Shown: positions 50 to 43,674 of the stretch, one piece after another
How the letters are laid out: each line of letters starts with the position of its first letter
Numbering within the stretch: the stretch's first letter is position 1
Assembly (NCBI GenBank): GCA_021203405.1
Contig: JAJQBG010000261.1
Coordinates: forward strand, 1 to 43,674
Direction: 5' to 3'
Length of the DNA: 43,674 nt
From: Bacteroides sp.
GTDB lineage: Bacteria; Bacteroidota; Bacteroidia; Bacteroidales; Bacteroidaceae
The notes under the pieces: generated by a model
Databases searched by the model: none
Told to the model about the DNA's origin: nothing
Seen by the model: only the letters and a program-made list of their open reading frames with translations
Program-made: the position numbers and the translations under genes

Positions 50-2349
50 ATGAAAAGAAATATACTACTATTCCTGTTCCTGCTTTCTCTTTTGCCTGCT
101 GTGGGAAAAGAGTGGAAAGCCTGGTGGATCGGTACGGATGTATGTCAAAGCGAACCGAATACCTGGTTGAGTTATCGTAAAACGGTGGAGATAGAGAAGG
201 TGCCGGATACTGCCCTTGCTGCTATTGCTGCAGACAGTAAATACTGGCTTTGGATCAACGATCACCTGGTTGTATTTGAAGGTGGGCTTAAACGGGGACC
301 TACCCCGGCGGATACTTATTACGATGAGGTGGATATCGCTCCTTACCTGGAAAAAGGAAAAAATATAATCGCTGTTCTGGTGTGGTATTTTGGTAAACAG
401 GGTTTTTCGCACAACAGTAGTGGAAAGGCTGCTCTTCTCTTTGATTGCCAGACTCCGGAGGTTGAAATTATCAGTGATCATAGCTGGCGTTGTATGATAC
501 ATCCTGCGTATGGTACAGCTCCTGACCCGAAACCTAATTATCGGCTTTCGGAATCCAGTCTTTTATTTGATGCCCGGAGAGATCCGGAAGGGTGGTACCG
601 GTCGGGATTTAATGAACACTCCATACCGGGCGCTTCTGCTTTACAGAAGGCCGGGGAGGCTCCCTGGAATCAATTGGTAAAGAGACCCACTCCACTGTGG
701 AAGGATTCAGGGCTGAAAGAATATGAGAAGGCATATCGTAACGGTGATACGCTGGTTTGTGAACTTCCTTATAACGCACAGGTAACACCTTACCTGAAAG
801 TGGAGTCTCCTGCCGGAAAAAAGGTAGTAATCGCTACGGATAACTATTTTTATTACAATGGGAATACGGAAAATATACGGTCGGAATATATCACCCGGGA
901 GGGAATACAGGAGTATGAGAGCTATGGCTGGATGAACGGGCATAAAGTCTATTATCTTTTACCCGGTGAGGTAAAGGTCCTTTCGCTTCTTTATCGGGAA
1001 ACGGGTTATGATACGGAGTTTTCCGGCTCTTTTACCTCTTCCGATCCGCTTTTCAATCAATTGCGGGAAAAATCGGCACGAACCTTATATGTAACCATGC
1101 GGGATACCTATATGGATTGTCCGGAACGGGAGCGGGCTCAATGGGCAGGCGATGCGGTTAATCAGGCCGGGGAGGCTTTTTATGCTCTTTCCCTCTCCAG
1201 CCACTTACTGACTCGTAAATAGATCCATGAACTGATTGGCTGGCAGAAACAAGATGGTGTGATCTATACTCCTGTTCCTGCCGGTAACTGGTATACCGAA
1301 TTACCAGGACAGACCCTGGCTGCCCTGGGGTATTACGGGATCTGGAAATATTATATGCACACCGGTGATAAAGAGACGCTGGTTGCCGTGTATCCGGCTG
1401 TAAAAAAGTACCTGGATCTTTGGACAACAGATGCACAGGGGTTGGTCCGCTTCCGGGAAGTCGGTTGGTTGTGGGGAGATTGGGGAGATAACCGGGATAT
1501 GCATCCCTTAATAAATGCCTGGTATTATCTGGCTTTGCAGGGGGCTTTTTACATGGCTACGGAGTTGGAGAATGAAGCAGATGCCCTGGAGTATGTAAAA
1601 AGGATGACCCGGCTCAAAGTAGGTTTCAATAGCTGTTTCTGGACAGGGAATGCTTACCGGGATCCTCATTACCGGGGAGAAACCGACGACCGGGTACAAG
1701 CTCTGGCAGTGGTCTCCGGCCTGGCTGATACAGATAAGTACAGGAAGCTGCAAACACTCTTCCGGACTCAGCTGCATGCCAGTACTTATATGGAAAAATA
1801 TGTTTTTGAGGCGATGATGAAGATGGGGCTGGAAGAGGAGGCGATGCAGCGGCACCGGCGTCGTATGGAAGGAATGGTAACTTATCCGGGATTCTCTACG
1901 TTGTTTGAGCATTGGAACATCGGTGTGGATGGATTTAAGGAGGTTCTGTGAACCACTCCTGGACAGGGGGAGGATTAACCGTACTCTCTCAGTATGTGTG
2001 TGGGGTCTCGCCGTTAAAACCCGGATATGAATTGGTTGCCGTATTACCACAACCGGGTGATCTGGAAAAAGCCTCCGCGGTAGTACCTTCTGTAAAAGGC
2101 AGGATAGAGACCTCTTTTGTCAATGAGAAAGATCTTTTCACGTTGCAGATAACTCTTCCTCCGGATACGAAGGGTGTGATCGGAGTGCCCGGAAAAAGAG
2201 TAAAAGAGATAACGGTGAACGGGCATACGGTATGGAAAAAAGGTAAGTTTGTGGAAAATCCTGTTTGCAGGCTTTCGGAAGAGAGAGGAGAAACTCATGT
2301 AAAATTTGAAGTATCATCTGGTAACTATCAGGTGATGGCATTGAAATAG
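50..2349 (+). pseudogene. GH78-type alpha-L-rhamnosidase, disrupted (in-frame TAG 1220-1222; 1-nt frameshift near 1937-1939)
   Basis: ORFs 50-1222 and 1259-1951 share a frame and are separated by a TAG; ORF 1948-2349 continues the protein in another frame. Motifs: signal peptide, DCPERERAQWAGDA, NHSWTGG. Restoring one A in 'TTTAAGGAGG' gives GFKGGSVNHSWTGGGL. Confidence 0.8.
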
Positions 2350-2366
2350 TAAACGATCCTGATACA

Positions 2367-5140
2367 ATGAAAAATTTATTCTTGATTGCATGTACATTGT
2401 TCTGCCTGGCTTTCCCGGCGAAAGCCCTCGAAGTGGTAGAGATACGGTGTGAAAACCAGTTACAACCTTTAGGCCTGGAAACCAGACAGCCTCGTTTTTC
2501 CTGGAAAATAAATTCGGCGGAACGGGGAGTGTATCAGACGGAGTACCGTTTACTGGTCTCTGATAACCTGAGCGATCTTAACCGGCACAGGGGAAATATG
2601 TGGGATAGCGGTTGGATCTCTTCTGCCACTTCTCTGCATCTGCTTTATGAGGGAAAACCGTTGGCATCTGCCGGTAAATATTACTGGAAGGTAAAAGTAA
2701 GGGATAACAAGCAGAAGGAGTCTTCGTGGTCGGCACCTGCTCTCTTTGGTATAGGCTTACCTGATCAGGAAGATTGGTTCCCTGCGAAATGGATCGCTAT
2801 GGAGCGGGTGGAGTCGCAGGACCGCATTGTTCTGGGATATCAGTTGGCAGGGAACCAGGTCACTCCTCTCGCCCAGGAACCTCTTATGCCACAATCCCGT
2901 AACTCTTTTGAAATTGCAAAGAAAGTAAAGTCTGCTACTGCTTTTATTTGCGGACTGGGACATTTTGAAATGAGTGTAAACGGAGAGAGTGTAGGAGATA
3001 ATTTCCTGGAACCGGCATGGAGTAACTATGATAAAGTCTCTTATTATGTAACCTATGATATTACTGATCTGCTCAGAAGAGGAGAGAATGTGGTGGGAAT
3101 AAGGTTGGGAAATGGATTTTTACATATTCCCCGGGACCCTACCCGCTACCGCAAACTACTGACTACTTTTTCCTATCCAAAGATGATCTGTAAAATAAGA
3201 ATTGCCTATACGGATGGTTCCTTCAGAGATATTGTAAGTAATGAGGACTGGAAAGTCACTTCCAGCTCTCTTACCTACAGCAGTATCTACGGCGGAGAAG
3301 ATTTTGATGCCGGAAGGGAACAGCCGGGGTGGGATCGTCCTGGTTTCTCCGATAGTGCCTGGCAAAAAGCGATTGAAATTGATCCGGCCGGTAAGCTTAC
3401 TTCCCAGCTGTCTCCGCCTATGAAAGTAATGGAACGACTCCCGGTAAAATCCATTGAGCAGACTCAGCCTGGAGTTTATATCTATGATTTCGGACAAAAT
3501 GCTTTTGCTATTGTCGCTTTAAAGGTAAAGGGCAGGCAGGGGAAAAAGTGGTGATGCGTCCCGGCGAATATCTCACTCCGGAAGGAAGGGTGAACCAGAA
3601 TAACAGTGGATATAATTACTGGTTCTCCTATACACCGGCAGGAGAGAGTACCGAAAGCTGGAAACCTGCTTTTTCCTATTACGGCTTTCGGTATATACAG
3701 GTGGAAGGAGCGGTTCCGGAGGGTGAACCCAATCCGGATGATCTTCCTGTGATTGAAGAGCTTACCTCTCTTCATGTACGCAATGCTTCGGAAAGGGTCG
3801 GAGAGGTCTCCTGTTCCAGCCCTCTCTTTAATGATATTTATTCGTTGATCGACTGGTCTGTCCGCAGTAATATGGCCAGTGTGCTTACGGATTGTCCGCA
3901 CCGTGAAAAACTGGGATGGCTGGAGGTGGCTCATTTAATGAGTCATTCTATAGCATACGGGTATGATATTAAACAGATGTATACCCAAACCCTGGTTAAT
4001 ATGAAAAATTCCCAGTATGAGAACGGACTTATTCCGAGCACAGCCCCGGAGTTTGCCCATTTTCCGGGAGATTTTCACGATTCACCGGAATGGGGTAGTG
4101 CAGCCATTATTCCCCCCTGGTTCTTATATCAGTGGTATGGAGATGCGTCGGTGATCGCTGACTATTATCCGATGATGGAAAAATATATAAATTATCTACA
4201 CTCCCGTACTGATAATCATATTCTCTATCATGGATTAGGCGACTGGTATGACCTGGGACCTGCCCATCCGGGATACAGCCAGTTAACAGCGCGGGGGCTC
4301 ACACCTACTGCTATTTACTATTATGATCTCCATATTATGGCATGCTGTGCTCTGTTATTGGGCAATGAAGAGGAGGCCCGGTATTATGAAGAACTGGCTG
4401 ATGAGGTAAAGAAAGCATTTAATGAAAAATTCTTTGACAGGGAGAAAGGATATTATGACCGGGGTAGCCAGACGGCCAATGCCATGCCCCTCTATCTGGG
4501 GATCGTAGAACCGGAATACCGGGAACAAGTGCTTGGACAGATCATACAGAATATCCGTGAACAGGATAACAGTATTACTTCAGGAGATATCGGGTTCAGC
4601 TATCTTTTGCGGGTACTGGAGAGGGAAAATGCCTCAGAAGTAATTTTTGATATGAATAACCAGACTCATAAACCAGGGTACGGTTACCAGTTGATGCAGG
4701 GAGCTACCTCGCTTACGGAATCCTGGACTGCTTTACAAACTGCCTCTCATAATCATTGTATGCTGGGGCATTTGCTGGAGTGGTTTTATAGTGGGCTGGG
4801 CGGGATAAAAACCGATCCCGATGCTCTGGCATACAAACGTTTTATGATCCGTCCCGATCCGGTGGGGGATATAACTTCTGCCAGAGTAACCTTTGAATCG
4901 CCCTACGGTAAAATATTTCATGCGTGGGAAAAGAGAGAGAACCGTTATAAGTCTCATATTACCATACCTGCTAATACTACGGCAGTAATCTGTCTTCCGG
5001 AAGCACCCCGGGAATGTATTACGGAGAATGGGGTCCCTGTCGATAACAACCCCTCTGTGACTTATCTGGGGACAGACGGAAAATATACCATGTATGAAGC
5101 CGGTTCGGGTACATACTGTTTTGAAGTGGAAAAACCCTAA
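2367..5140 (+). pseudogene. GH78 alpha-L-rhamnosidase, disrupted by a 1-nt frameshift near 3530-3532
   Basis: N-terminal part 2367-3554 (signal peptide, RCENQLQPLGLETRQPRFSWKI) and C-terminal part 3548-5140 (DCPHREKLGWLE, LGDWYDLGP). Adding one G to GGG at 3530-3532 gives KVKGQAGEKVVMRPGEYLTPEGRVNQ. Confidence 0.85.
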
Positions 5141-10123: not shown

Positions 10124-12067
10124 ATGAAAAGTAAAAAGATCATAATCTACTGCCTGAGTATCCTTTTTTCGGGCCATCTGTTTTACTCCTGCGATTACCT
10201 GGATGTGGTTCCGGATAATGTAGCCACCCTGGATATGGTTTTTAATAACCGTGTTACAGCCGAACAATACCTGGCTACCTGTTACAGCTATGTACCCCTC
10301 TATGGAGCACAGGCCCACAACCCCGGTATAGGAGCAGGGGGAGAGTTCTGGTTCTATACTTTTGCCGACAGCTGGTTCGGGAACGACCAGTCTTTTGGTA
10401 TTGCCAACGGTATGCAGAATGCCAACAAACCCCTGAATAATTATTGGGACGGAGAAGGGGCCTATCCACTCTTCCGGGCCATCCGCGATTGCAATATATT
10501 TATTGAAAATGTATCAGACCGTTCCCGGGTGACCGACCTGGAAGAGATCGAAAGAAGGCGTTGGATCGCAGAAGGAAAGATGCTGAAAGCCTTTTTCCAT
10601 TTCTATCTCTTTCAGCTTTATGGCCCTATTCCGGTCATTGATGAGAATCTTCCCATCTCTACCAACGAACAGGAGGTACGTGTTACCCGCCAAAAGGTAG
10701 ATGAAGTGGTCGATTATATCGTTGAATTACTGGAGGAAGCCACTCCTGACCTGCCTGTCAGGATTCAAAAAGAGGCCACAGAACTGGGTCGTTTTACCCA
10801 ACCGGCTGCGCTGGGGCTCAAGGCTAAAGTGCTTCTGCTGGCTGCCAGTCCCTTGTTCAATGGAAATACGGATTATGCCGCCTTCAGGGATCACGACGGT
10901 CAACCCTTCTTTAACCAGACATACGATCCCGGAAAATGGAAAAAAGCTGCGGATGCCGCTCAGGAAGCTATAGCGGTTTCACTTTCGGCAGGGCACACCC
11001 TGTACGATTTCCGGGCTTATAACCCCGTGATCCTCAATGATAGCCTGGGAGTATCTATGAATATCCGGGGAGTGGTATCCGACCGCTTTAACAGAGAGCT
11101 GATCATGGGGGTAGGAAAAGGCCATACTACTGACCTCCAACAATTAGCCCAGGCAAGGCTGGAAAACTTTCATCTCACTCAACAGCAAAATGTAAAGAGT
11201 CTGCTGGCCGTTACGTTCGATGTAGTAGAAAACTTTTATACAGCCAACGGAGTACCGATGGAGGAAGATAAAGAGTGGGTGGAATCCGGTATGTATGAGA
11301 ATCGGTATTCCACTAAAGTGGCCGAGCATAAGCATCGTTACTTTATCAAGGAGAATTACGAAACAGCCCTTATGCATTACAACCGCGAACCCCGCTTTTA
11401 CGGTTCTATTGCTTTTGACGGTTCCAGCTGGTACGGAAGCGGAAGGATCGATATGGAAAATATGCTCTATCTGGAGGCCAAGAAAGATCAGTTAGGGGGT
11501 AAAAGATTGCAGGGGCTCTATTCTATAACCGGTTACTGGCCTAAGAAACTGGTTTGCTACGAAAACGTAATTGACAATACCTCTATCATGATCAAAGAGT
11601 ATCCTTTCCCTATTATCCGGTTAGCCGATCTCTATCTGATGTACGCCGAGGCGGTGAACGAATCTTTAAACGATGGAGAAGCAGTGCCGCCGGCTGTGTA
11701 TGAGTCTCTGGATCTTATCCGGAAACGTTCCGGGCTGGAAGGCATTAAAGAGTCCTGGCAAAAATATTCCATATATCCCACCAAACCCGATACCAAAGAG
11801 GGAATGCGTGAGATCATACGCCGGGAGCGAAGCATCGAGCTGGCACTCGAAACCCATCGCTTCTTTGATATCCGCCGGTGGAAACTGGGCTTGTCGGCCT
11901 TTAATACCACCCTTACCGGATGGAGTATCGATGAAAGTGAAACGCAGGACTATTATCAGCTTTATCCCATTGGCTATATGAGGTTCACCCAGAAAGATTA
12001 TTTATGGCCTATCAAAAAGCAGAACCTGATTGTAAACCCACAATTAATTCAAAATCCAGGTTGGTAA
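10124..12067 (+). CDS. SusD-like nutrient-binding outer membrane lipoprotein
   Basis: Intact 647 aa; lipobox-like SCDYLDVVPDN, directly after susC, C-terminal FDIRRWK and LWPIKKQNL motifs. Confidence 0.94.
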   Translation: MKSKKIIIYCLSILFSGHLFYSCDYLDVVPDNVATLDMVFNNRVTAEQYLATCYSYVPLYGAQAHNPGIGAGGEFWFYTFADSWFGNDQSFGIANGMQNANKPLNNYWDGEGAYPLFRAIRDCNIFIENVSDRSRVTDLEEIERRRWIAEGKMLKAFFHFYLFQLYGPIPVIDENLPISTNEQEVRVTRQKVDEVVDYIVELLEEATPDLPVRIQKEATELGRFTQPAALGLKAKVLLLAASPLFNGNTDYAAFRDHDGQPFFNQTYDPGKWKKAADAAQEAIAVSLSAGHTLYDFRAYNPVILNDSLGVSMNIRGVVSDRFNRELIMGVGKGHTTDLQQLAQARLENFHLTQQQNVKSLLAVTFDVVENFYTANGVPMEEDKEWVESGMYENRYSTKVAEHKHRYFIKENYETALMHYNREPRFYGSIAFDGSSWYGSGRIDMENMLYLEAKKDQLGGKRLQGLYSITGYWPKKLVCYENVIDNTSIMIKEYPFPIIRLADLYLMYAEAVNESLNDGEAVPPAVYESLDLIRKRSGLEGIKESWQKYSIYPTKPDTKEGMREIIRRERSIELALETHRFFDIRRWKLGLSAFNTTLTGWSIDESETQDYYQLYPIGYMRFTQKDYLWPIKKQNLIVNPQLIQNPGW

Positions 12068-28910: not shown

Positions 28911-29057
28911 AAAAAGAGTGTTCCGGGACTCCTCCTCCGCTCTTCAGGTACGGTAAAGGCTGGTTTACCATCCTTCGGAGAGGGGTCGGTCGGAGGAGGG
29001 TTCCCGGAACATCCTCATGAGTAAAGGGGTTAAAGAATATTCCGGAACACTCTTTTT
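28911..29057. repeat. Nested inverted-repeat element in the DUF4961-GH78 intergenic region
   Basis: Perfect 16-bp arms AAAAAGAGTGTTCCGG (28911-28926) / CCGGAACACTCTTTTT (29042-29057), plus a second arm pair 28919-28939 / 28991-29011 (19 of 21 matching) sharing the left arm. Confidence 0.85.
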
Positions 29058-30616: not shown

Positions 30617-31998
30617 TCATTTTTCATTCATAATTTTATCTATATCCACCCAGAAGAACCGGGGACGATAGGTACTTACATCGCTGAATTGCTCCGCAAA
30701 TACTTCGGTATTCACATTGTAACTAATGAGGATCATCCCCTCTTTTTCAAACTGCGGGTGAGCCATTGCGTTGTAAGTGAACAAATGTGGAATATCCTGT
30801 TCGTATGTCTTAAAAATAAGTTGTTTATTTCTCCAGGGTCCTGTAGGGCTATCGGCAATAAAAGTATAGATCTCACCCGTGTTAAATGTCTTTTTCTGCG
30901 TAAGTAATACATATTTGTCCCGCAGCCTGAACACATTGAACTGTGACGAAACAGGTACAGAAGATAACCCTTCCAGCTTTACGGCATCCGATGGATCTGC
31001 ACTCCAGCCCGAACCGTTGTAATAGTGCCAGTTGTTGTACGGATCGCCTGCAACGGTCCGTGCTACCAGCACTTCGGTGATAGGATCCAGATCGTTCCGT
31101 ATATCTACTTGTGCATAAATATAGGTGTGATCACCGTCGTTCAGTGCGGCCATTCCGTAATGTATATCTGTTGAGCCGTTGAAGGGTATAGGGGTTATCC
31201 GGTTCAACTCCAACCCGGGAAGATTGTACTCCAGAATATGGGTAGTTTCATACATAAATTCCCACATATCATCTCTTTCCTGGTACATCAGCGTCTGGAA
31301 GATGTACAACTTATCACCCTCCACAAAACCGTGTCCCGGCCAGTACCATTTTTGCTCGTCGGGGTAACCGGGAGGTACGGCAGCAGAAGCATTTTTGTTA
31401 CCTCCGGCCCGTAAATGGCACTCACCTTACCGTTGTCATACACAATATATGTATTCCGGTACATGGGGTCTGATGTCGGGCGTTGTCCGCCTGTGACCGT
31501 TCCCACGTAAGAGTCACCCATCAGGAAGATACTTCTGCCATCGGGCAGGAGAATAGAGTACATTCCATCGCCTGCGGTTACACTACCGCGGTCGGGGATG
31601 ATAACGCCTGCGATCACCTTATCCAGGCCATCGATCTTTACCTGAGTGGTACTGGTGCTGACCGCTTTGCCACCTTCCATCAATGAGATAGCTACGGATA
31701 CAGGCTCGTTGTACGGCACGCGGGTAAAGTAGGACATCGTTTCGTCCCTTCCGACGGTTTTGACTGTGGCCGGTTTGCCCAGTTCAATGCAATAGTGATC
31801 GAAACTGAATTCCGGGTCGGTAAGTTCCCACGACAGGTATAAGGTATCGGCATTGGATGTAGTGACGATCCTGAACAACGTATCGTCGTCTCCGGGCTCA
31901 AAGGGGTTTTCCCTTTTACTGTCATCCCTGTCAGAGCAGGAGAGGAGAAGCCCGAGTAAGAGTGCTGATAACACTATAGGGTTGGAGTCACACTTCAT
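30617..31998 (-). pseudogene. DUF5005/DUF4185-like surface lipoprotein, disrupted by a 1-nt frameshift at the T-run 31392-31396
   Basis: LLLSCSDRDD; SILLPDGRSIFLMGDSYVGTV. Adding one nucleotide to the run gives GPEVTKNASAAVPPGYPDEQKWYWPGHGFVEGDKLYIFQTLMYQ, joining ORF 30617-31324. Confidence 0.7.
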
Positions 31999-32017
31999 GG
32001 TTAACTACTTGTTTATA

Positions 32018-33538
32018 TCAGTCTCTTTTCAAATTGGGATTTAACCTCTTTTCCCGGATCGGATACGGCAACAACAAACTTGCCTCGGTAAAGGGTGCTG
32101 TATGGCTCGGCGTCTGGTATCCGATCAAATTTACGATCTGACCTGTAACAGCGTGCAGAGCTTTGCGGGTTCTTGCCATGTCATACCAGGTCTGGTTCTC
32201 GAAAGCCAGCTCCCAGAAACGTTCCTGCAATACCTTATCAACAGTGATAGAGGTGGGTTTTTCCTCTTCGGGCAATGCACGGTTTCTGACTAAATAGTAT
32301 GCTTCAATAGCATCGGCGTCAGTGGTAGTACCACCGTCGGCATTGGCTTTTGCTTCAGCCATCATTAAAAGAACATCGGCATATCTCAGAAGGGTAAAGT
32401 CAGCACCTGATTTTCCGGTCTCTGCAGCTTCCTGATCCCAGTATTTGTAGATATAGAGTCTTCCCAGGTCTACCATTCCCGAACCATCCAGGGCTTCCTA
32501 CTCAGTATAGTAAAACTCTCTCTCTTGTATACGCTTATCACCCTGGGGGTAGGTATTGAAGAAGAGCTGCGTAACAGTGATCGCTCCGCCGTAAGCGGCA
32601 CTGGCTGATACCGATTTTGCAGGAGCGGGATAAGCCAGCAGGGCACTATGGAGGGGATTACCTGCCTGGTCGGCTTCCCGCTGAACAGACCAGATGATCT
32701 CTCCGGAGTTTTCCACTGTCCTCAGTTCTTCGTAAGTATCGAACAGTTCAAATGCTTTACTATTGTATACCTGTTTTGCCATGGTATAAGCCCTGGTATA
32801 ATATTCGGCTCCTTTTTGAAGAGGATACCCGGCCATAGTCAGTAAAACCTTGGCATGCATAGACTTCACAGTGCCCTTGGTTACACGGCCGCTGACATTG
32901 GTCCAATCCGGATTCTCCATCAGTTCACCGGCTTTAGCCATATCTTCATCGATCTGGTTGTAGACATCCTCTACGGATGACAGCTCGATGGCTGTGTTGG
33001 CTACATCCTTGGTCGGTGTAAGTTTCAGGGGTACCGGTCCGTAGAGTCTTACTAAGTTAAAGTAGAAATAACCGCGAAGAAAGTAAGTTTCGCCCAGGTA
33101 CTGATTTTTTTTATTTTCGGCAATGGATCCCTCTTCCATTCCTTCAATACCTTCGATCACGCTGTTACAGTTCTCAATGGCTTTATAGGCTGTTTCCCAG
33201 AATCTTTGTACATAGCTGTTGTTATCGGCAATGAGCAGACTGTTGGCCTGTACAAGGTCCTGGGTTCCTTGTCCGCGCATTCGTTCACCGTAGCCGTGCA
33301 TAAATTCCAGGAAAATAAAACTTTGCGAACCAGGTTCAATATCCGAATCCATGATATCATCCACGAAGGTGTATATACCGTTAACGGCGGCAAGTACCTG
33401 CTTTTCGTTCTGATAATAGGAGTCGGGATTGAGGAATGTCTTGGGGTTTTCTTCTAGGAAGGAATCGCAGGAAGAGAGGATGACCGCCAGAGCCATAAGC
33501 CGGGTTATAGTTGAATATATCTTTTTCATATCGTTCAT
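32018..33538 (-). pseudogene. SusD/RagB-like lipoprotein with in-frame TAG at 32498-32500
   Basis: SSCDSFLEENPKTFLNPDSYYQNEKQVLAAVNGIYTFV; same frame resumes after TAG (YYTE*EALDGSGMVDLGRLYIYKYW...LLRYADVLLMMAEAKANA). Confidence 0.9.
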
Positions 33539-33550
33539 CGTATTAAGTTT

Positions 33551-36500
33551 TTAGAAGGTGATCTTAATGTTAGCAGTAACGGTTGTCGGTCGTGGGTAGG
33601 AGTAAAAATCGATACTCTGACCGTTATCTGTATTGAATGTTCCCATCTCCGTATCGTATCCCGGATACTGAGTGAATAATGCCAGGTTCTCGACATTCAC
33701 TCCCAGCGACAGGTTGCTGACCTCAGGAATATGCCTAAGGAGTTTGGGACTAAAGGAGTAGGAGAGGCCGATATTGCGTATCCTCACGAAATCTCCTTTG
33801 TGAAGCATATATGAATCTTTCTCGTTCTCGCCGAAGAAAGGATCTGACGGCAAACGTAGTGCGGCAACCATGGTGTTCTGATTCTCAGGTGTCCATGCTT
33901 TGAGTATATCTTTTACACTGTTGCTATACAAAGGCCTGTTCTCACCCATGGAGTGGGTAATACTCATGATCTTAAAGCCATATACATAGTTCACATCCAC
34001 CATAAGAGAGAAACCTTTATAAGTAAAGGTATTTACCATAGTCAGATTACCTTTCGGGCGACCGGTCCCCATAAGCTGACGGTCTTCCTCGTCGATCTTA
34101 TAGTCACCATTCACATCTTCGTATTTGATATCGCCCGGTCTCTTACCATACTTGGCTGCCTCTTCTACCTCATCAAGCCCCCATGTACCAAGCCTTTTAT
34201 ACACATAGTAAGAAGCCCAGTCTATCCCTTCGCGGGCAATGATATCGTTGCCCAGGTCGATGGTTTCACCGTTAATATCCAATGTCTTCACTTTATTGGT
34301 AGAATAGACAAAATCTGTTTGCCACATAAAGTCACGGTTGTGGATGTTGCGTGTGGTAAGGGTAGCCTCGAAACCGTTGTTGCGTATCTTACCCAGGTTG
34401 GTCCATGTAGTAGCGTATCCGGTGGTGATCGGTATCTGTTTCTCGAACAACAGGTCTTTAGTGGTTTTAGTATAGTAATCCATAATTAACTCCAGGCGGT
34501 TATTAAAGAAGTTTAGGTCTAACCCAATGTTGAACTGGCTGGATGATTCCCACTTAAGATCTTTGTTACCCAGGTTACTGAGAATGACATACGAGTTCAG
34601 GGTATTATCGAAGATGGTTGAACCATTGCTGTATTGTGAGATGGTTCTGTAATTGGGTATAGAGGCATTCCCTACCAAACCGTAACTGGTTCTTAGTTTG
34701 GCCTGATTTACCACGTTGAGAAGGGGTTCGAAGAAACTCTCTTCTGAGATACGCCATCCGGCTGAAACAGAGGGGAAATAACCGTACTTGTTGTTCATAC
34801 CGAAGTTTGAGGCACCGTCCACACGGAAAGTAGCCCCCAGCAGATACTTGTCACGGAAACTATGGTTCATACGGAAGTAATATGAGTTCATGGTATTCTG
34901 GTTCATTCCTGATGTCGGTTCGTGCCAGGTTGTTCCTGCAGAGAGGTTGTAATAGTCAAAGAAATCATCAAAATATTGTTCAGAACCGGAAGAGGAACTT
35001 TCGTCCCGTTTGTAATACCAACTGGCTCCCAGCACAAAGTTAGAACTGAGTTGTCCGTTAAAATATTCATCGCTGTAAGTGAAGTAGTTCTCGCTGGTCA
35101 GTTTCTGGGTATCGTAATTGTAAATATCGGCATATCCACCATTATTCTCGCTTACATCCAGCAGACCGGCCTTGGCATACTTCATCTCTTTCTTATTATT
35201 CTGTTGGTAGTCACCCTGAAGAGTCAGTGTCAGTTTTTTAGTAAGGTCGAGGGTCGCATTGAGGCTAAATACGGAGAAATTAGATTTCCACTCGTCCTTT
35301 CTGTCCCGTAGCAGAAGCAATGGGTTCTCTCCCTCTTCGGAATATGGATAGTCACCCTTGCGTCCCCAGGTACCATCTTCATATTTCACAGGCACGATAG
35401 GGGGCATTTCGATCATACCACGGAGGGCTCCCTGGCTGAAAGAACTTTCCATATCGTTGTTATTACCCTTCTGGCTCCCTACGGTTCCTACTACCTGAAC
35501 CCGTAACCACTCTTTGATCTTGCTGTTTACATTCACAGTACCCGAGAAGCGTTCGTACTCGGAACCCTTCATCACTCCCTCATAGTTCTGGTAGGCAACA
35601 CTGGCGTAAACACTGGTGTTATCGTTACCCGATGCAAAAGATACAATGTGGTCATTGGTGATGGCTGTACGGGTCATCTCCTTCTGCCAATCGGTATTGT
35701 ATTTGGGTGAAGCGATCAGCAGGCCGTTCTCATCGTATTGATAATTACCCGAAGCATCTTTAGCATAGTGGAAGAGCTTTTCGTCGGCAGTGAGCAGGTG
35801 AGGTATGGTTTGTCCGCTGTATGCATAGCTTCGTCGCTGAACTTCCATATATTCATCTGCATTCAGCATATCAAGTTTGCGGTTCATAAAGCCGAATCCC
35901 ATCTTACCATCGTAAGTAACGGTACCTTTCCCCTTTTTCCCTTTTTTGGTGGTGATAAGCACAACCCCGTTCGATCCTTGTGCACCATACATAGCTGTTG
36001 CCGCTGCGTCCTTAAGCACATCGATCGATTCAACATTGGCAGAGTTTATAATATCGGGATCCACACCGATCACCCCGTCAAGTACATAAATAGGATCTTT
36101 GCCTGCGTTGATGGAACCCATCCCCCGAACACGCAGAGCAGAAGAACCACCAGGTCTGCCGGACATGGATACATTGGTTACCCCGGCTACTTTTCCGGCA
36201 ACACTCTGCATGATGTTGAATGCGGAAGGGCGGTCGTTCAGCTCTTCGCTTTTTACGGAACTTACCGCTATGGACATATCCTTTTTGGAACGGGTTCCGT
36301 ATCCTATAACCACCACATCGTCGATCAGCACATAATCCGGTTCCATAACTACATTGAACTGCGTTTTGTCACCGATAGGAAGTTCTACGGTTTTCATTCC
36401 CATATAGGTTAATTGCAAGGTTCCGGCGTTGGCGGGTATCTTCAAGGTAAAAAAGACCGTCAATATCCGTCGTGGTACCTATGGTCGTTCCTTTTACCAC

Positions 36501-36692
36501 AACAGCCGCTCCGATTACAGGTTCACCGCTATCATCTTTGACCAAACCGGAAATGGTTCTTTCTGTCTGTGACAGGATAGTAGAGGTTGCTTTCGCCTGA
36601 GTGCCGCTCATTAACAGCAGTGTCAGGGCAAACATCAGTTTTACAACTTTGCACATGGTACTCCGTGCATCCGCTCTCTGTTTTTTCTTCAT
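33551..36692 (-). pseudogene. SusC/RagA-like TonB-dependent transporter, disrupted by a 1-nt frameshift in the A-run 36449-36454
   Basis: N-terminal ORF (SGLVKDDSGEPVIGAAVVVKGTTIGTTTDIDGLF) and main ORF (TLKIPANAGTLQLTYMGMKTVELPIGDKTQ...VIGYGTRSKKDMS). Removing one nucleotide restores TDIDGLFTLKIPANAGTLQLTYMG. Start taken as ATG 36692. Confidence 0.92.
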
Positions 36693-36785
36693 ATTAGTAA
36701 ACAATTTTTAATTAATAAAAAGTTGTACCTTATTAGCAGGCTAACATTCAAGGCATCTTATTTTTAAATCGTCTGTTTTTTTTGA

Positions 36786-36944
36786 TTAGTTCATGTAGAA
36801 CTATTCTCTTTTTACTCCCTGTATAATATGCATAGTCATTTATAAGGGGACTTTTGTTTTTTCTTCTTTGTTCTCTTTTCCGCTAAATCCTTTCTCTTAG
36901 GCATTCATGCAACGTTTCTGTTTACCAAGTTCTACATGAACTAA
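36786..36944. promoter_or_regulatory. Candidate invertible promoter segment upstream of susC
   Basis: Perfect 17-bp inverted repeat TTAGTTCATGTAGAACT (36786-36802) / AGTTCTACATGAACTAA (36928-36944), each of the form AGTTC(N5)GAACT, flanking 125 bp of AT-rich noncoding DNA just upstream of susC. Confidence 0.7.
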
Positions 36945-37021
36945 GTGGGTACTAATTCTATGATCACTGTATCCGTGAAAACAGAATTGTAAAACAGGGA
37001 GTTAAGCAGGATTAAAGCGTT

Positions 37022-39364
37022 TTATCTCCCCCATTCTTTCTGAGGGGTATCTCCCATATAGATCTCCAGTACCCCACCGTGAACTATATCGGAAAAGTCC
37101 AGGTAACACTTGTTGTACTCTTCTCCGTTGAGTACGGCCCTCTGTATGTATATATTTGAAGAAGAGTTATCGTGAGCTATTACCGTAAATTTTTCTGCGC
37201 TTGCATATTCAGGGTCCAGTTGGAATTCTATCCGGTCAAATACAGGGCTGGTGATCTCAAACCTCGTATCTCCCGGACAGGAAGGATGGATACCCGAGGC
37301 TGTCAATACATACCAGGCCGACATCTGTCCCGCATCTTCGTTACCTACAATACCTTCCACCTCGTTACGGTAAGCGTTCTTACAGATATGCCGGCTCCAT
37401 TTTTGTGTATTCCAGGGCTCCTCCAGTTTATTAAATAAGAAGGGCACAAAGTGTACAGGCTCGTTGGCATGGTTGTAATAATCGTTCCATAAGAAATCCT
37501 CCGGGGTCTTGTCAAAGAGTTCATTCAGGTCTGCCAATACAGCTTCCCTGCCACCCATCAGTTCCACCATTCCCTCTATATCGTGAGGTACGAACCAACC
37601 CTGTTGATAGGGATTGGATTCTACACAACCGTACCATTCGGTGGTTCGGGCGTTCTCCGGCCACGCCATCCATGAGCCGTCTGCTTTACGGGGACGGAAC
37701 CACCCCTTCTCCTGATCAAAGATATTGCGATACGCCTGGCTTTTCTTTTGAAATTCAACCGCATCCTCTTCCTTACCAAGTGCAGCTGCCAGTTGCGCAA
37801 TGCACCAGTCGGTGTAAGCATATTCCAGGGTATGTGAGATGCTGAGTTCCGAAGGAGTATACCCCAGTTCATCGTTCCCGAAAACTTTGGAGGTGTTCTT
37901 TGCATACCTGTATGCTTTATCCACATCAAAAGTGCGTATCCCCTTTATATAAGCATCAGCCAGTATGGAGAGTGCCGGATTCCCTAACATACATCCTGAA
38001 TAGGCATTCATAAGCTCCCAGCGTTCATAATACTCCCGGCCACTCTGTTCAGCAAGTGTAATGAGGGAGTTCAGTTCATCACTGACCAGAGCAGGATTAA
38101 TAATGGTCTGTAAGGGGAACTGGCTCCGGAACACATCCCAGCCACTGAAAATAGTCCGTTTGGTGAATGCACCCCCGGTAGAATAAATTTTACCGTCGCC
38201 TCCCGTATAACGTCCGTTGGCATCGGTGTATATCCTGGGATCTATCATGGTGTGATACAGGGCGGTATAGAAAATGGTCTTCTCATCATCGGTTCCTCCG
38301 GATATTTTTATCCGGCTCAGCTCTTCATTCCATTGCCGGTAAGCCTCTGCTTTTACATCTTCGAAACTTAAAGCAGCTATTTCGGTATTGAAATTATTTT
38401 CCGCACCTTTCATATCTACAAAAGAGATCCCCACTTTGAGTGTTACTTCCTCTTCGTTCCGGGTTGGAAACTCCGTATAAAAGCCCAGGTGCTTGCCCCG
38501 GAGTTCATCTTTTCCGGTTATTACCGGAGCTTCCGCTACTCTTTTCAGGTAGGGGACCCGGATCACGTCATCTTTTTTCCGGCTCCAGCTGTCAGGGATC
38601 TCAGCACTCCAGAACCCGTAGTTCTCCAACGGTTTGCTGAATTGACCAAAGAAATATAAGGTATAATCTACATTTCCTTCTCCGTCGCCCCAGCCACCTC
38701 CTTCGGGAGTACATTTTATCCATCCCCGGATCGTGTTTTCATCTGCCACTTGGATATATTGTTCAACGGATGTTCCTCCCACTCTCCGGGCAAGGTCTAT
38801 CTGGATACGGGATCGCTCATTTTCAGGGAATGTAAATTTTAATATCCCGCATCGGGGTGTTGCACTGCTTTCAGTCTTTATATGATAGTCTGTAAGCTCT
38901 ACTGAATAGAATCCGGCCCGGGCAATTTCAGAACCCTTATCATAGCGGGAACGATACCCGGTAATACTTCCATCTTCTTTTCCGGCTATCTTTTTCAACG
39001 CTCCGGTTGTCGGCATTACCAGGAAGTTACCCAGGTCGCCAAACCAACCCACTCCGCTCATCTAGGTGAAAGCAAAACCTTCTATGGTTTGGTGTTCATA
39101 ACTATATCCGGGGCTGTTATCCCCTCCGGTAATTGTATTAGGACTTACCTGTACCATTCCATAAGGAGTCGTTGCTCCCGGGAACGTTTTTCCCAGCCCG
39201 TGGTAGGCTCCTGCGGCCGAAGTGCTGGTACTTGCCCCGATAAAGGGGTTCACATACTCTGCCGGTAGTAGGGAATGAGTGCTGCGGTGTGTTTCCGAGC
39301 AGGAGGCTGACCCGAAGATCAGGCAGGCCAGAAATAGCTTGAAAATGTTCCGGTTGTGTATCAT
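37022..39364 (-). pseudogene. GH92 alpha-mannosidase with in-frame TAG at 39062-39064
   Basis: VNPFIGASTSTSAAGAYHGLGKTFPGATTPYGMVQVSPNT...IEGFAFT*MSGVGWFGDLGNFLVMPTTG; the same frame continues through GNEDAGQMSAWYVLTASGIHPSCPG. Confidence 0.9.
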
Positions 39365-39435: not shown

Positions 39436-41979
39436 TCACTGGTGGGGTGTCAATCTCAGGGTTTTCAATCCGAAACGGGGCATTGTTACTTCCACCTCTG
39501 TTCCACCTTCCGTATATAGTGTAGGAAGAGTAGATAAAGTATTCCCGTTCAGGTCTGTTTCTTCCACTTTCGATAGAGAGGTCCCAAACTTTATAACCCT
39601 GGGAGCATCATTTCCGTCGGCATTGAAGAGCCTTATCATAATACCTTCGTCACACAAATAGGAGGCTACTATTTCGTAACCGGTTCCCTCCACATTGATC
39701 AACGAAACATTTTCAGGCTTTGCATCTTTTTGGAAGGAGGTAATAAGAGATTCATTCCATCGCAGACTCTCAGTATGAATATGAGAGGCATCCCACTCTT
39801 TGCTGTGAGGGATCACCGCAAACCGGATATAGGTAGAGCCCTCAATGGGATAATCGCGGCCCCACAAGCCATTCCCGGAGAATTGTACCGTAAGCCCAAG
39901 CGGGAAATTCTCTCCGTAAGAGTAGGAAGTAGTATGGTCTGAAAGTAGCGAAAAGCCATATTCCCCTTTTTGATCTGCAAGGTCCACCCAATTCAGGATT
40001 ATATTGTGTTTAATGCTATCCCAGGTGTTGAAATGGGTGTTTTCCAGTTCGCTGCGACAAACATCAAAAGGAGCATTTTTATAGAGAACAGGTGAATTCA
40101 GATCCACGGGAAAAAGAACGTTCAGCTTGAACCGGTCGTCGTAGAAGGCCCGGCGGTTGTTATCGTAAGCATCGGTCTGATGATATTCACCGATACCCAC
40201 ATTGCTCTTCCAGTCGATAGTAAGGTCAAAATCTATTTTTCGTTGCCCTTCTCTGAGGGTAATGGTTTGAGTAAAAGGATGCGAAGCTATTTCTCCCTCT
40301 ATCCGGACACTTTTTTCGAAGGGATTCTCCTGCACGACGGACACTACGGCAGGCTTTTCTACGGACGAATGGAACAAACCTTCGTCATAGAAGAACCCGC
40401 GTAGTTCGCCGATGTTAAATTCGCTGTTGTTATCTGAAAACTCTCTGTTACCCTCTTTTTTAGCTATAAGACTTTTAATAATACCCCCTTTTAACGGATC
40501 AATGACGATCCGATACATACTGTTCTCCAGTACTATCTCCTCCTGCCTGATCGTGGCTTCGGTCTTACATGGATTCTCTGCTCTTTTATCGGGTATCACA
40601 TAATAGGTGGCATATCCGAAAGCGGGTACCTCTGCTTCGAATACGATAAACGATCTGCTGTCTTCCGTTGTAGTACAAGTTTCTATTCTTTTACCGGTGG
40701 CGTCCGTAACATTCAGGTTCATCCCCGTAAAGTCCCCGGGCAGTTCCGCAGATACGATCTCACGCCTGGGAACACCCAGCGTATTGTATACCCGGAGATA
40801 GACCCCTTTTGTACCGGTTTCACCGGTTGTAAAGCTATCCGATACTTCTTTGAGGATATTACCGCAGATGAGGTTGGCCTCATGGGTCCAGTTCTGAATT
40901 TCATTGGCCCATGTATTCTGCCCGTGTAAACGATTATAAGGTACGATCCATGAGTCGTGGTGCTGGGTCAACATTAAAGTACGCCATGCTTCGTCCAGAT
41001 CCTCCTGTTTGTAACGGTATCCGTTAGAAAGGTTGGCTATTACACCCATCTTCTCGGCTATGACCAGGTTGTTCTCGGATTGACGTACCTGTCTGGCTAT
41101 CCGTTGCAGGACCTGGCTGCCCCACATCAGGCTGACACGGATATCTTCCTGTGAAAGATGATAATTATCATCCGTTTTACCGTTGGAAATGTGTTCAAAA
41201 TACTCCCTCCAGGTAACATAGACAGAGTTATTTTTAATGCTGTCTCCCGTGCCTATCCAGGGGCCTCTTCTCCAACCTGCATCCTGATAAGTCATACCCA
41301 CAGGATGCTCTATTCCAGCCTTGAAACAGGCTTGCAGGTAACCGGTCTCATTGCCCCAGACGGTAGTTTGCCATACGGAATTAGGCTCCAGTTCCTCACA
41401 GGCATACCTGGGGACAGTGAGTATGGAACTCCCATCCGGACCGGTCCAGTTCACTAACTCACCCCCATAAGGCGCGGTATATCCTCCCCAACAGGTATTG
41501 GGACATTTCAGCACGGCATACCTGAAACCAAATTGGGTAAGTATTTGTGGCAGGCTACTGGTAAAGCACGGCTCTTCTACCGCATAGGTGACAAATTCAA
41601 CTTCCGGAAAATGGTTCCGGATACTTTGGATACCGTAGCCAAACTGGCGTATAATACTCTCTCCGGATACATTATAACAGTAGGGTTGAGCATAAGCAGG
41701 GTTGGTGAATTCTACCCGTTTATCAGTGGCGATCCTGCAGAAGCGCTCATAATCTTCCGGTGTTCTTACTGCTACCGTATCCCAGGTCTCGGGTTCTATT
41801 TCTAGCCCCATTCTCCACCAGGGATATTCCGATAACAGATCCATCATATAGCTGGTTTTCCATTCTACCGGATAATGGCCGTAAATACCTCCATGATATC
41901 CATCGACAAAATAGACTTGTTGTCCGTAGACCAGGGTATATACTACACAGGATAGCAGTACAAAAAAGGTGCGTTTCAT
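39436..41979 (-). CDS. GH38 family alpha-mannosidase, secreted
   Basis: Intact 847 aa; signal peptide then VYFVDGYHGGIYGHYPVEW, TLMLTQHHDSWIVPYNRLHGQNTWANEIQ, C-terminal beta-sandwich with GIGEYHQTDAYDNNRRAFYDDRF. Confidence 0.82.
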   Translation of the reverse strand: MKRTFFVLLSCVVYTLVYGQQVYFVDGYHGGIYGHYPVEWKTSYMMDLLSEYPWWRMGLEIEPETWDTVAVRTPEDYERFCRIATDKRVEFTNPAYAQPYCYNVSGESIIRQFGYGIQSIRNHFPEVEFVTYAVEEPCFTSSLPQILTQFGFRYAVLKCPNTCWGGYTAPYGGELVNWTGPDGSSILTVPRYACEELEPNSVWQTTVWGNETGYLQACFKAGIEHPVGMTYQDAGWRRGPWIGTGDSIKNNSVYVTWREYFEHISNGKTDDNYHLSQEDIRVSLMWGSQVLQRIARQVRQSENNLVIAEKMGVIANLSNGYRYKQEDLDEAWRTLMLTQHHDSWIVPYNRLHGQNTWANEIQNWTHEANLICGNILKEVSDSFTTGETGTKGVYLRVYNTLGVPRREIVSAELPGDFTGMNLNVTDATGKRIETCTTTEDSRSFIVFEAEVPAFGYATYYVIPDKRAENPCKTEATIRQEEIVLENSMYRIVIDPLKGGIIKSLIAKKEGNREFSDNNSEFNIGELRGFFYDEGLFHSSVEKPAVVSVVQENPFEKSVRIEGEIASHPFTQTITLREGQRKIDFDLTIDWKSNVGIGEYHQTDAYDNNRRAFYDDRFKLNVLFPVDLNSPVLYKNAPFDVCRSELENTHFNTWDSIKHNIILNWVDLADQKGEYGFSLLSDHTTSYSYGENFPLGLTVQFSGNGLWGRDYPIEGSTYIRFAVIPHSKEWDASHIHTESLRWNESLITSFQKDAKPENVSLINVEGTGYEIVASYLCDEGIMIRLFNADGNDAPRVIKFGTSLSKVEETDLNGNTLSTLPTLYTEGGTEVEVTMPRFGLKTLRLTPHQ

Positions 41980-42313: not shown

Positions 42314-43674
42314 TCACCCTCCGTTATCGCGTTCTTTTTTTATTTTGCTCTTATAGTTATAGATCGTTTGTGTGGATAGGCGGAGTTGTAAAGCGATCTG
42401 AGCCACATCCGTGATCCCTAAACGGATCAGGGCAAAAATACGTAACTCAGCATTAAGCTGTGATTTCGGTAGATTAAATCGTTTATCGGGCTTTAGTAAT
42501 GCATTGAATTTTTCTACAAAGTCAGGATAAAGTTCCAGGAAAGCTTTATCAAAGTTGGCATAAATATCTTCTATCTCTTTCTCAAAACTACCGGATGAGG
42601 ATTTATAAAGTTCCTGTATCAGTCCCGCTTTGATCTTGAGGTTTACATCCTTCCTGTAGCGTTCCAGCTTATCAATGTAAACAGAGTTCTGATTGATAAA
42701 ATATCCGATATATTTCTCTTTTATGATATTCGCCTCGTCAAGCCGTCTATTAAGTTCTATCAATTCTTCGTTTTTCTGTAAAAGATCCTCCCTGGTCTTT
42801 ATGATGATCTTCTTTTGATTATAATTGAAATACAAAGCGATGACCAGGGTAATAACGATCAAAGTGATAAAGGCGGCATATAGACGCAGGTTTTGTTTCT
42901 GGTGCTCTATTTTTTGCAGGTAAGTATTTTCAATAATCGGCTGTACCCGTGCGATAACGCTGTTCTTAAAACGGGAATTGAAAAAATTAGCATCTTCCAG
43001 GGCTACTTTAATATACGTATAAGCACGGTCTGTTCTGCCGTCCTGGTAAAGCCTGGTAGCCAGCGAAAGTAAAGCTTCGTTCTCTTTGACTGCCAGTTGA
43101 GTATCGGTAATGGCAGCCAGCAGTAAATAATAATTTTCCTCTTCTTCATTCCCTGCCAAAGCATATACTTTTGCCAGGCTCATGGCTGCCATCGCATAAG
43201 CATGCGTTTCGGGTTGTTTTTTCTCAAAAGAGGTTAACAATAACTTAAGAGCTTCCCGATAATTACCCGCCTCCTGCAACCGGAAGGCATATTCTTTGTC
43301 ATATTCATCCGATCCATTGTCCAGTAAACTGATAACTTCATTCCGGTAAGAATTGATCTCCGCCATGTATGGATCGGAATATTTCACGTCGGCTGTATAT
43401 TTGATCAGGTTTTCATAATATCGTATGTATGTCCAGCAATACCTGCATTTTAAATAGCCGGGAAGGGTATCATATACCACCGAGGTCAGGATCCCGTGAG
43501 CCTGGATGAATAAACCTGACAGGGAATAGACGAACGCCAGTTCAAGCCTGCTTTCATTCAATAGATCATCATTCCCGAGTTTTTGGGCAATTTCTATATT
43601 TTCATGAATATAATATTCGGCTGAGTCACAAATTAAGGTCTGGTATTGAGAAATGATCTTATTATTTATATAAT
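42314..43674 (-). CDS. DUF6377-like membrane-anchored regulator with C-terminal HTH, 5' end beyond the window
   Basis: The tracked ORF starts at TTG 43561 but the frame stays open to the edge (YINNKIISQYQTLICDSAEYYIHENIEIAQKLGNDDLLNESRLE). TPR-like repeats, one TM segment (LYAAFITLIVITLVIALYF), coiled coil, LuxR-like HTH (LGITDVAQIALQLRLSTQTIYNYKSKIKKE). Confidence 0.8.
   Translation of the reverse strand, partial: YINNKIISQYQTLICDSAEYYIHENIEIAQKLGNDDLLNESRLELAFVYSLSGLFIQAHGILTSVVYDTLPGYLKCRYCWTYIRYYENLIKYTADVKYSDPYMAEINSYRNEVISLLDNGSDEYDKEYAFRLQEAGNYREALKLLLTSFEKKQPETHAYAMAAMSLAKVYALAGNEEEENYYLLLAAITDTQLAVKENEALLSLATRLYQDGRTDRAYTYIKVALEDANFFNSRFKNSVIARVQPIIENTYLQKIEHQKQNLRLYAAFITLIVITLVIALYFNYNQKKIIIKTREDLLQKNEELIELNRRLDEANIIKEKYIGYFINQNSVYIDKLERYRKDVNLKIKAGLIQELYKSSSGSFEKEIEDIYANFDKAFLELYPDFVEKFNALLKPDKRFNLPKSQLNAELRIFALIRLGITDVAQIALQLRLSTQTIYNYKSKIKKERDNGG

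Follow-up and report, generated by a model that had tools for sequence, protein, structure and literature searches.

An inverted intergenic segment ahead of susC in a mannoside-type PUL of Bacteroides, most probably a phase-variation switch

The window considered here, i.e. the whole stretch of 43,674 nucleotides that was analysed, is contig C17 of a Bacteroides-type MAG (4.02 Mb in 427 contigs, 84% complete) and carries a cluster of genes encoded on the minus strand. In the order of that strand, the cluster consists of a SusR-family regulator gene near the contig end (DUF6377; 42314-43561), which matches PF19904 and, with 420 bits, falls under the cut-off of 480 for NF058541; a GH38-type alpha-mannosidase gene (39436-41979; PF01074 and PF07748); a GH92 alpha-mannosidase gene (37022-39364; PF07971, PF17678 and TIGR01180); the segment that is the subject of this study; a susC/ragA gene immediately downstream of the segment (33551-36692; TIGR04056, 771 bits), the ATG of which at 36692 is codon 5 of a TTG-started ORF at 36704; a susD-like gene (32018-33538; PF14322); and lipoprotein genes. 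The presence of GH92 and GH38 genes in the cluster makes a mannoside or an N-glycan the likely substrate of this PUL.

The same locus (L028) is present on contig C178 of a sister Bacteroides MAG, G549 ('Bacteroides sp. isolate BH.2_15', 79% complete), and some of the gene calls of the original prediction are revised here. The GH92 gene stands as predicted, but its reading frame is cut by an in-frame stop, the end of which is at 39062; as a further correction, susC shows a +1 frameshift near 36456 when compared with the sister. The susD-like gene is divided into two ORFs in the window and is intact (507 aa) in the sister, a base is lost near 31411 in the window, and several frameshifts or stops occur in susC and GH92 of G549. 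Genes of the PUL (30617-39364, and L172) are broken by differing single-base indels or stops in the two MAGs, which may reflect either decay of the PUL or sequencing errors; split ORFs are also seen beyond the PUL, at 50-5140 of the window.

The segment that separates GH92 from the susC leader is bounded by two arms of 17 nt each, which are candidate recombination sites. The left arm, TTAGTTCATGTAGAACT, occupies 36786-36802 on the plus strand, has the core ATGTA and lies 93 bp from the susC ATG; the right arm (36928-36944, minus strand) is the exact reverse complement of TTAGTTCATGTAGAACT, its core reading TACAT on the plus strand. The arms are thus 100% complementary and enclose a noncoding spacer of 125 nt (36803-36927), to which no strand is assigned, the whole measuring 159 bp (36786-36944) with a GC content of ~34%. 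Both the positions and the complementarity of the repeats, and the noncoding nature of the spacer upstream of susC, agree with the original prediction. Each arm by itself is an imperfect palindrome of the form AGTTC(N5)GAACT, according to that prediction one of the inverted-repeat classes of promoter inversion in B. fragilis. The window has exactly two copies of the motif AGTTCN5GAACT, against a mean of 0.05 in 100 dinucleotide shuffles, none of which contains two. The whole 4.02-Mb MAG has five such sites, about four being expected by chance, and 36786/36928 is the sole pair.

A DNA search of 150 relatives returned no orthologue of 36640-37020, and a protein search with susC in 121 genus genomes returned nothing above 36% identity except the window itself. 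The DNA-level result was superseded by a pattern search for the pair of sites in 160 genus genomes, which found the orthologous pair at 11696-11849 of the G549 contig. The pair is present in six of the 160 genomes, the window included, and the two cores are reverse-complementary exactly in five of them and with one mismatch in the sixth. The G549 contig is collinear with the window over ~15 kb at 91.5-92.5% identity, bar 36786-36944, which is reversed. In a BLAST comparison of the two assemblies, positions 43674-36928 and 36802-28642 of the window align as minus-strand blocks (91.5% and 92.3%, respectively), and 36786-36944 as a plus-strand block (88.75%), so that the breakpoints of the inversion, on the left as well as on the right, are the repeats themselves. 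Since exactly this stretch is reversed in the sister genome and its flanks are collinear, the segment has inverted since the divergence of the two species and is a real invertible segment (inverton), which lends direct support to the inversion that had been inferred from the window. A second perfect inverted repeat of the same cluster (28911-28926/29042-29057) served as a control; its interior has the same orientation in G549, and a perfect inverted repeat alone is thus seen to occur without such a reversed alignment. The right core of the sister locus is TGCAT instead of TACAT, a single mismatch that might hinder further flipping there. A single mismatch in an otherwise reverse-complementary core is seen in both L028 and L069, which come from MAGs of the 'BH.2' series.

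The site class was surveyed in ~85,000 prokaryote genomes (a GTDB-based collection) by a scan for pairs of AGTTCN5GAACT sites with a distance of 110-140 nt between them, and 83 stretches were matched. Exactly reverse-complementary 5-nt cores, the chance of which is 1/1024 per pair, were found in 37 pairs (34 stretches), the window left out. Among these, all the titled stretches belong to the Bacteroidales (Tannerellaceae, Parabacteroides, Bacteroides, Phocaeicola and unclassified Bacteroidales); the other taxa in the scan have direct-repeat or unrelated cores. Viral contigs gave five single-site and seven pair matches, none of the pairs having inverted cores. When the window and one wider-spaced pair are counted in, 30 distinct cores occur among 39 pairs, the half sites of 5 nt being fixed and the cores varying between loci and matching within a locus. 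Strand exchange by tyrosine recombinases across a short overlap requires a matched core. A variable core that is matched within each locus is therefore expected of a recombination overlap that needs identity and not a fixed sequence, and as fixed operators have no need of a matched core, the pattern argues for recombination. It also provides a simple genome-only membership test for the class, which separates its members from palindromes that arise by chance, from tandem repeats and from hairpins. Opposed segments between flanks of the same orientation were observed in four comparisons (L036/L082, from Parabacteroides gordonii/faecis, L030/L062, L016/L092 and L092/L098), and the inversion is thus also backed by flipped segments of the same class at other related loci. 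The start of a susC-like gene lies within ~350 bp for 13 of the 37 segments; the remaining ones include some before sigma/anti-sigma genes, FkbM methyltransferases and short KxYVKP-type proteins, the sigma/anti-sigma and KxYVKP labels being the authors' own reading of the sequences.

A pair of fixed operators to which a dimeric regulator binds, which the original prediction had set against its own reading, or an RNA hairpin could account for the repeats without any inversion, given that each arm is an imperfect palindrome and that stems are predicted for the region. Such an account is at odds with the sister genome, where the segment, unlike its flanks and the control repeat, is reversed; as the segment has flipped, fixed operators are excluded as the sole explanation, and the account as a whole is highly improbable. 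It might also be argued that the segment was joined the wrong way round in one of the two MAGs, both being metagenome assemblies with fragmented contigs. However, assembler k-mers are normally longer than 17 bp, the length of the present repeat, and the segments in the four further comparisons, two named Parabacteroides species included, are flipped alike, which leaves very little room for an assembly artefact.

The segment lacks TAnnTTTG in both directions, a finding of the original prediction that a promoter scan reproduced. Among relaxed matches the best, GACTTTTG at 36849, faces away from susC, does not exceed those in shuffled sequences (p ~0.8) and is not conserved in G549; therefore, the ON/OFF orientation is left unassigned, scans of either strand having given no assignment whether or not the orthologue was included. 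No terminator-like site was detected in 36600-37100 and Rfam gave no match in the region. The RNA over both arms is predicted to form a stem of 16 pairs (z ~-5) in either orientation because the arms are unchanged by the inversion, and folding thus cannot tell the two states apart. The absence of a consensus Bacteroides promoter from the segment speaks against a promoter switch. In its favour are the position of the segment, with GH92 on one side and the susC leader on the other, the frequent occurrence of the class just before susC and the literature on invertible SusC and PUL promoters, which suggest that a promoter within the segment probably switches susC and that the reversal most probably moves this promoter. 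In such a mechanism, a trans-acting recombinase would pair the two AGTTC(N5)GAACT sites, strands would presumably be exchanged within the 5-nt core, and the 125 bp between the sites would be reversed, turning the putative promoter toward or away from susC. The expected outcome, provided that susC responds and the flip is reversible in living cells, would be that the susCD part of the mannoside/N-glycan-type PUL varies in phase between ON and OFF. We consider it quite probable that the locus is a site-specific invertible segment, flipped in trans, which most probably phase-varies susCD of this PUL via a promoter; the inversion is observed, and the promoter is presumed from its setting.

An invertase acting in trans is consistent with the gene content of the window, in which a profile search with PF00589 and PF00239 found neither a tyrosine nor a serine recombinase, as had been noted from the sequence. 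Matches to PF00589 in the MAG lie on contigs C69, C427 and C293, and PF00239 (serine recombinase) has none in this 84%-complete genome; besides XerD it has two integrases, an intact one of the Phage_int_SAM_5 type (L013) and a broken one on C293, and no invertase was identified beyond these. XerD excepted, no orthologous recombinase is common to both MAGs. L013, the sole intact non-Xer integrase of the MAG, was rejected as the invertase, being a generic Bacteroides integrase (matched at E <= 1e-60 in 62 of the 160 genus genomes) whose nearest G549 counterpart has only ~45% identity. A scan for AGTTCN5GAACT at the integrase loci of genomes that have a pair gave one match against 0.3 expected, and hence no sign of an invertase beside such a site. 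A tyrosine recombinase orthogroup (L182, L186, L201, L220 and L243; up to ~390-400 aa, L201 being a shorter ORF) is present in the five other pair-positive Bacteroides with 54-64% identity, XerD in those genomes being 65-74% identical (the G000/G549 pair excepted); no member was detected in the MAG of the window, which is 84% complete. The orthogroup is a candidate trans-acting invertase, offered as a lead only. It is a speculative and rather doubtful extension that the Bacteroidales AGTTC(N5)GAACT sites form one system, in which a single conserved and vertically inherited tyrosine recombinase, possibly this ~390-aa candidate, would accept any matched 5-nt core and act in trans on SusC PULs, FkbM methyltransferase arrays, KxYVKP-type short proteins and sigma/anti-sigma operons.

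The inversion may also be that of a relic switch, flipped in the past and now locked in one or both species while the invertase and the PUL decay. The core mismatch in the sister genome, the ORF-breaking indels and stops at different places in the PUL genes of both MAGs, and XerD as their only shared orthologous recombinase are in line with this, but the arms and the core are perfect in the window, neither MAG is complete (84% and 79%), and homopolymer indels of one base may be sequencing errors, ORFs being split outside the PUL too; a relic is thus given a small though appreciable probability. Inversion without a strict promoter switch, which would alter read-through from GH92/GH38, the structure of the leader RNA or antisense transcription and have a graded effect on susC, appears unlikely. 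Read-through is possible with all the neighbouring genes on one strand, and both the missing promoter consensus and the predicted stem over both arms speak for this reading; however, there is no terminator-like site in 36600-37100, the stem forms in both orientations, and the characterised small Bacteroides invertons often bear promoters (PMC11892184).

Invertible promoters and SusC/SusD inversions have been described in Bacteroides (PMC4747536, PMC12632263, PMC10939037, PMC11892184), and in gut Bacteroidales they include invertible regions near susC/susD (PMC10939037) and invertible PUL promoters (PMC4747536). The segment has the near-perfect arms around a short interior and the two orientations relative to the flanks (window and G549) that characterise Bacteroidales invertons, and the fixed half sites and reverse-complementary cores (ATGTA/TACAT) of the AGTTC(N5)GAACT class. 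With the invertible promoters of Bacteroides (fin regions, invertons) it shares short inverted repeats, an AT-rich intergenic segment of 100-200 bp, a position close upstream of a surface-protein operon, an orientation that varies between genomes and, presumably, a recombinase in trans; it differs in having no recognisable TAnnTTTG. A single recombinase of B. fragilis, Tsr0667, acts on SusC/SusD clusters and nine other scattered regions (PMC4747536), a control of many regions by one recombinase that the present class may share, but it acts on SusC/SusD shufflons, whereas a single small segment flips at the window locus. The capsule promoters of B. fragilis are likewise inverted by a master invertase in trans, Mpi (FinA), in the way proposed for the present segment; Mpi, however, is a serine recombinase (PMC4747536), and the 84%-complete MAG of the window is without a PF00239 match. 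The inversion ahead of the mannoside-type PUL is a new, well-supported case of the known Bacteroides invertible segments and very probably an on/off switch. An inversion tested against an orthologue at such a locus indicates that glycan use, besides the capsule, is likely to be bet-hedged in this lineage.

Several FkbM-type methyltransferase genes (L090, a Tannerellaceae MAG, at 1175-4724; also L046, L055 and L066) have AGTTC(N5)GAACT segments of their own, with 80-93% mutual identity, and possibly form a multi-copy phase-variable family. Runs of short KxYVKPxxES-type proteins with such segments ahead of them occur in L022, L078 and L087; one of these proteins was compared with Pfam and gave no match. 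Within the window, the second perfect inverted repeat (28911-29057; arms of 16 nt, spacer of 115 nt) lies between a DUF4961 gene and a GH78-like fragment and is conserved in the same orientation in G549, the structure being absent from all other loci examined. The RNA of this repeat has a very stable predicted fold (-75 kcal/mol, z -6.5) with a T run at the end, and would be a large structured intergenic RNA or a terminator.
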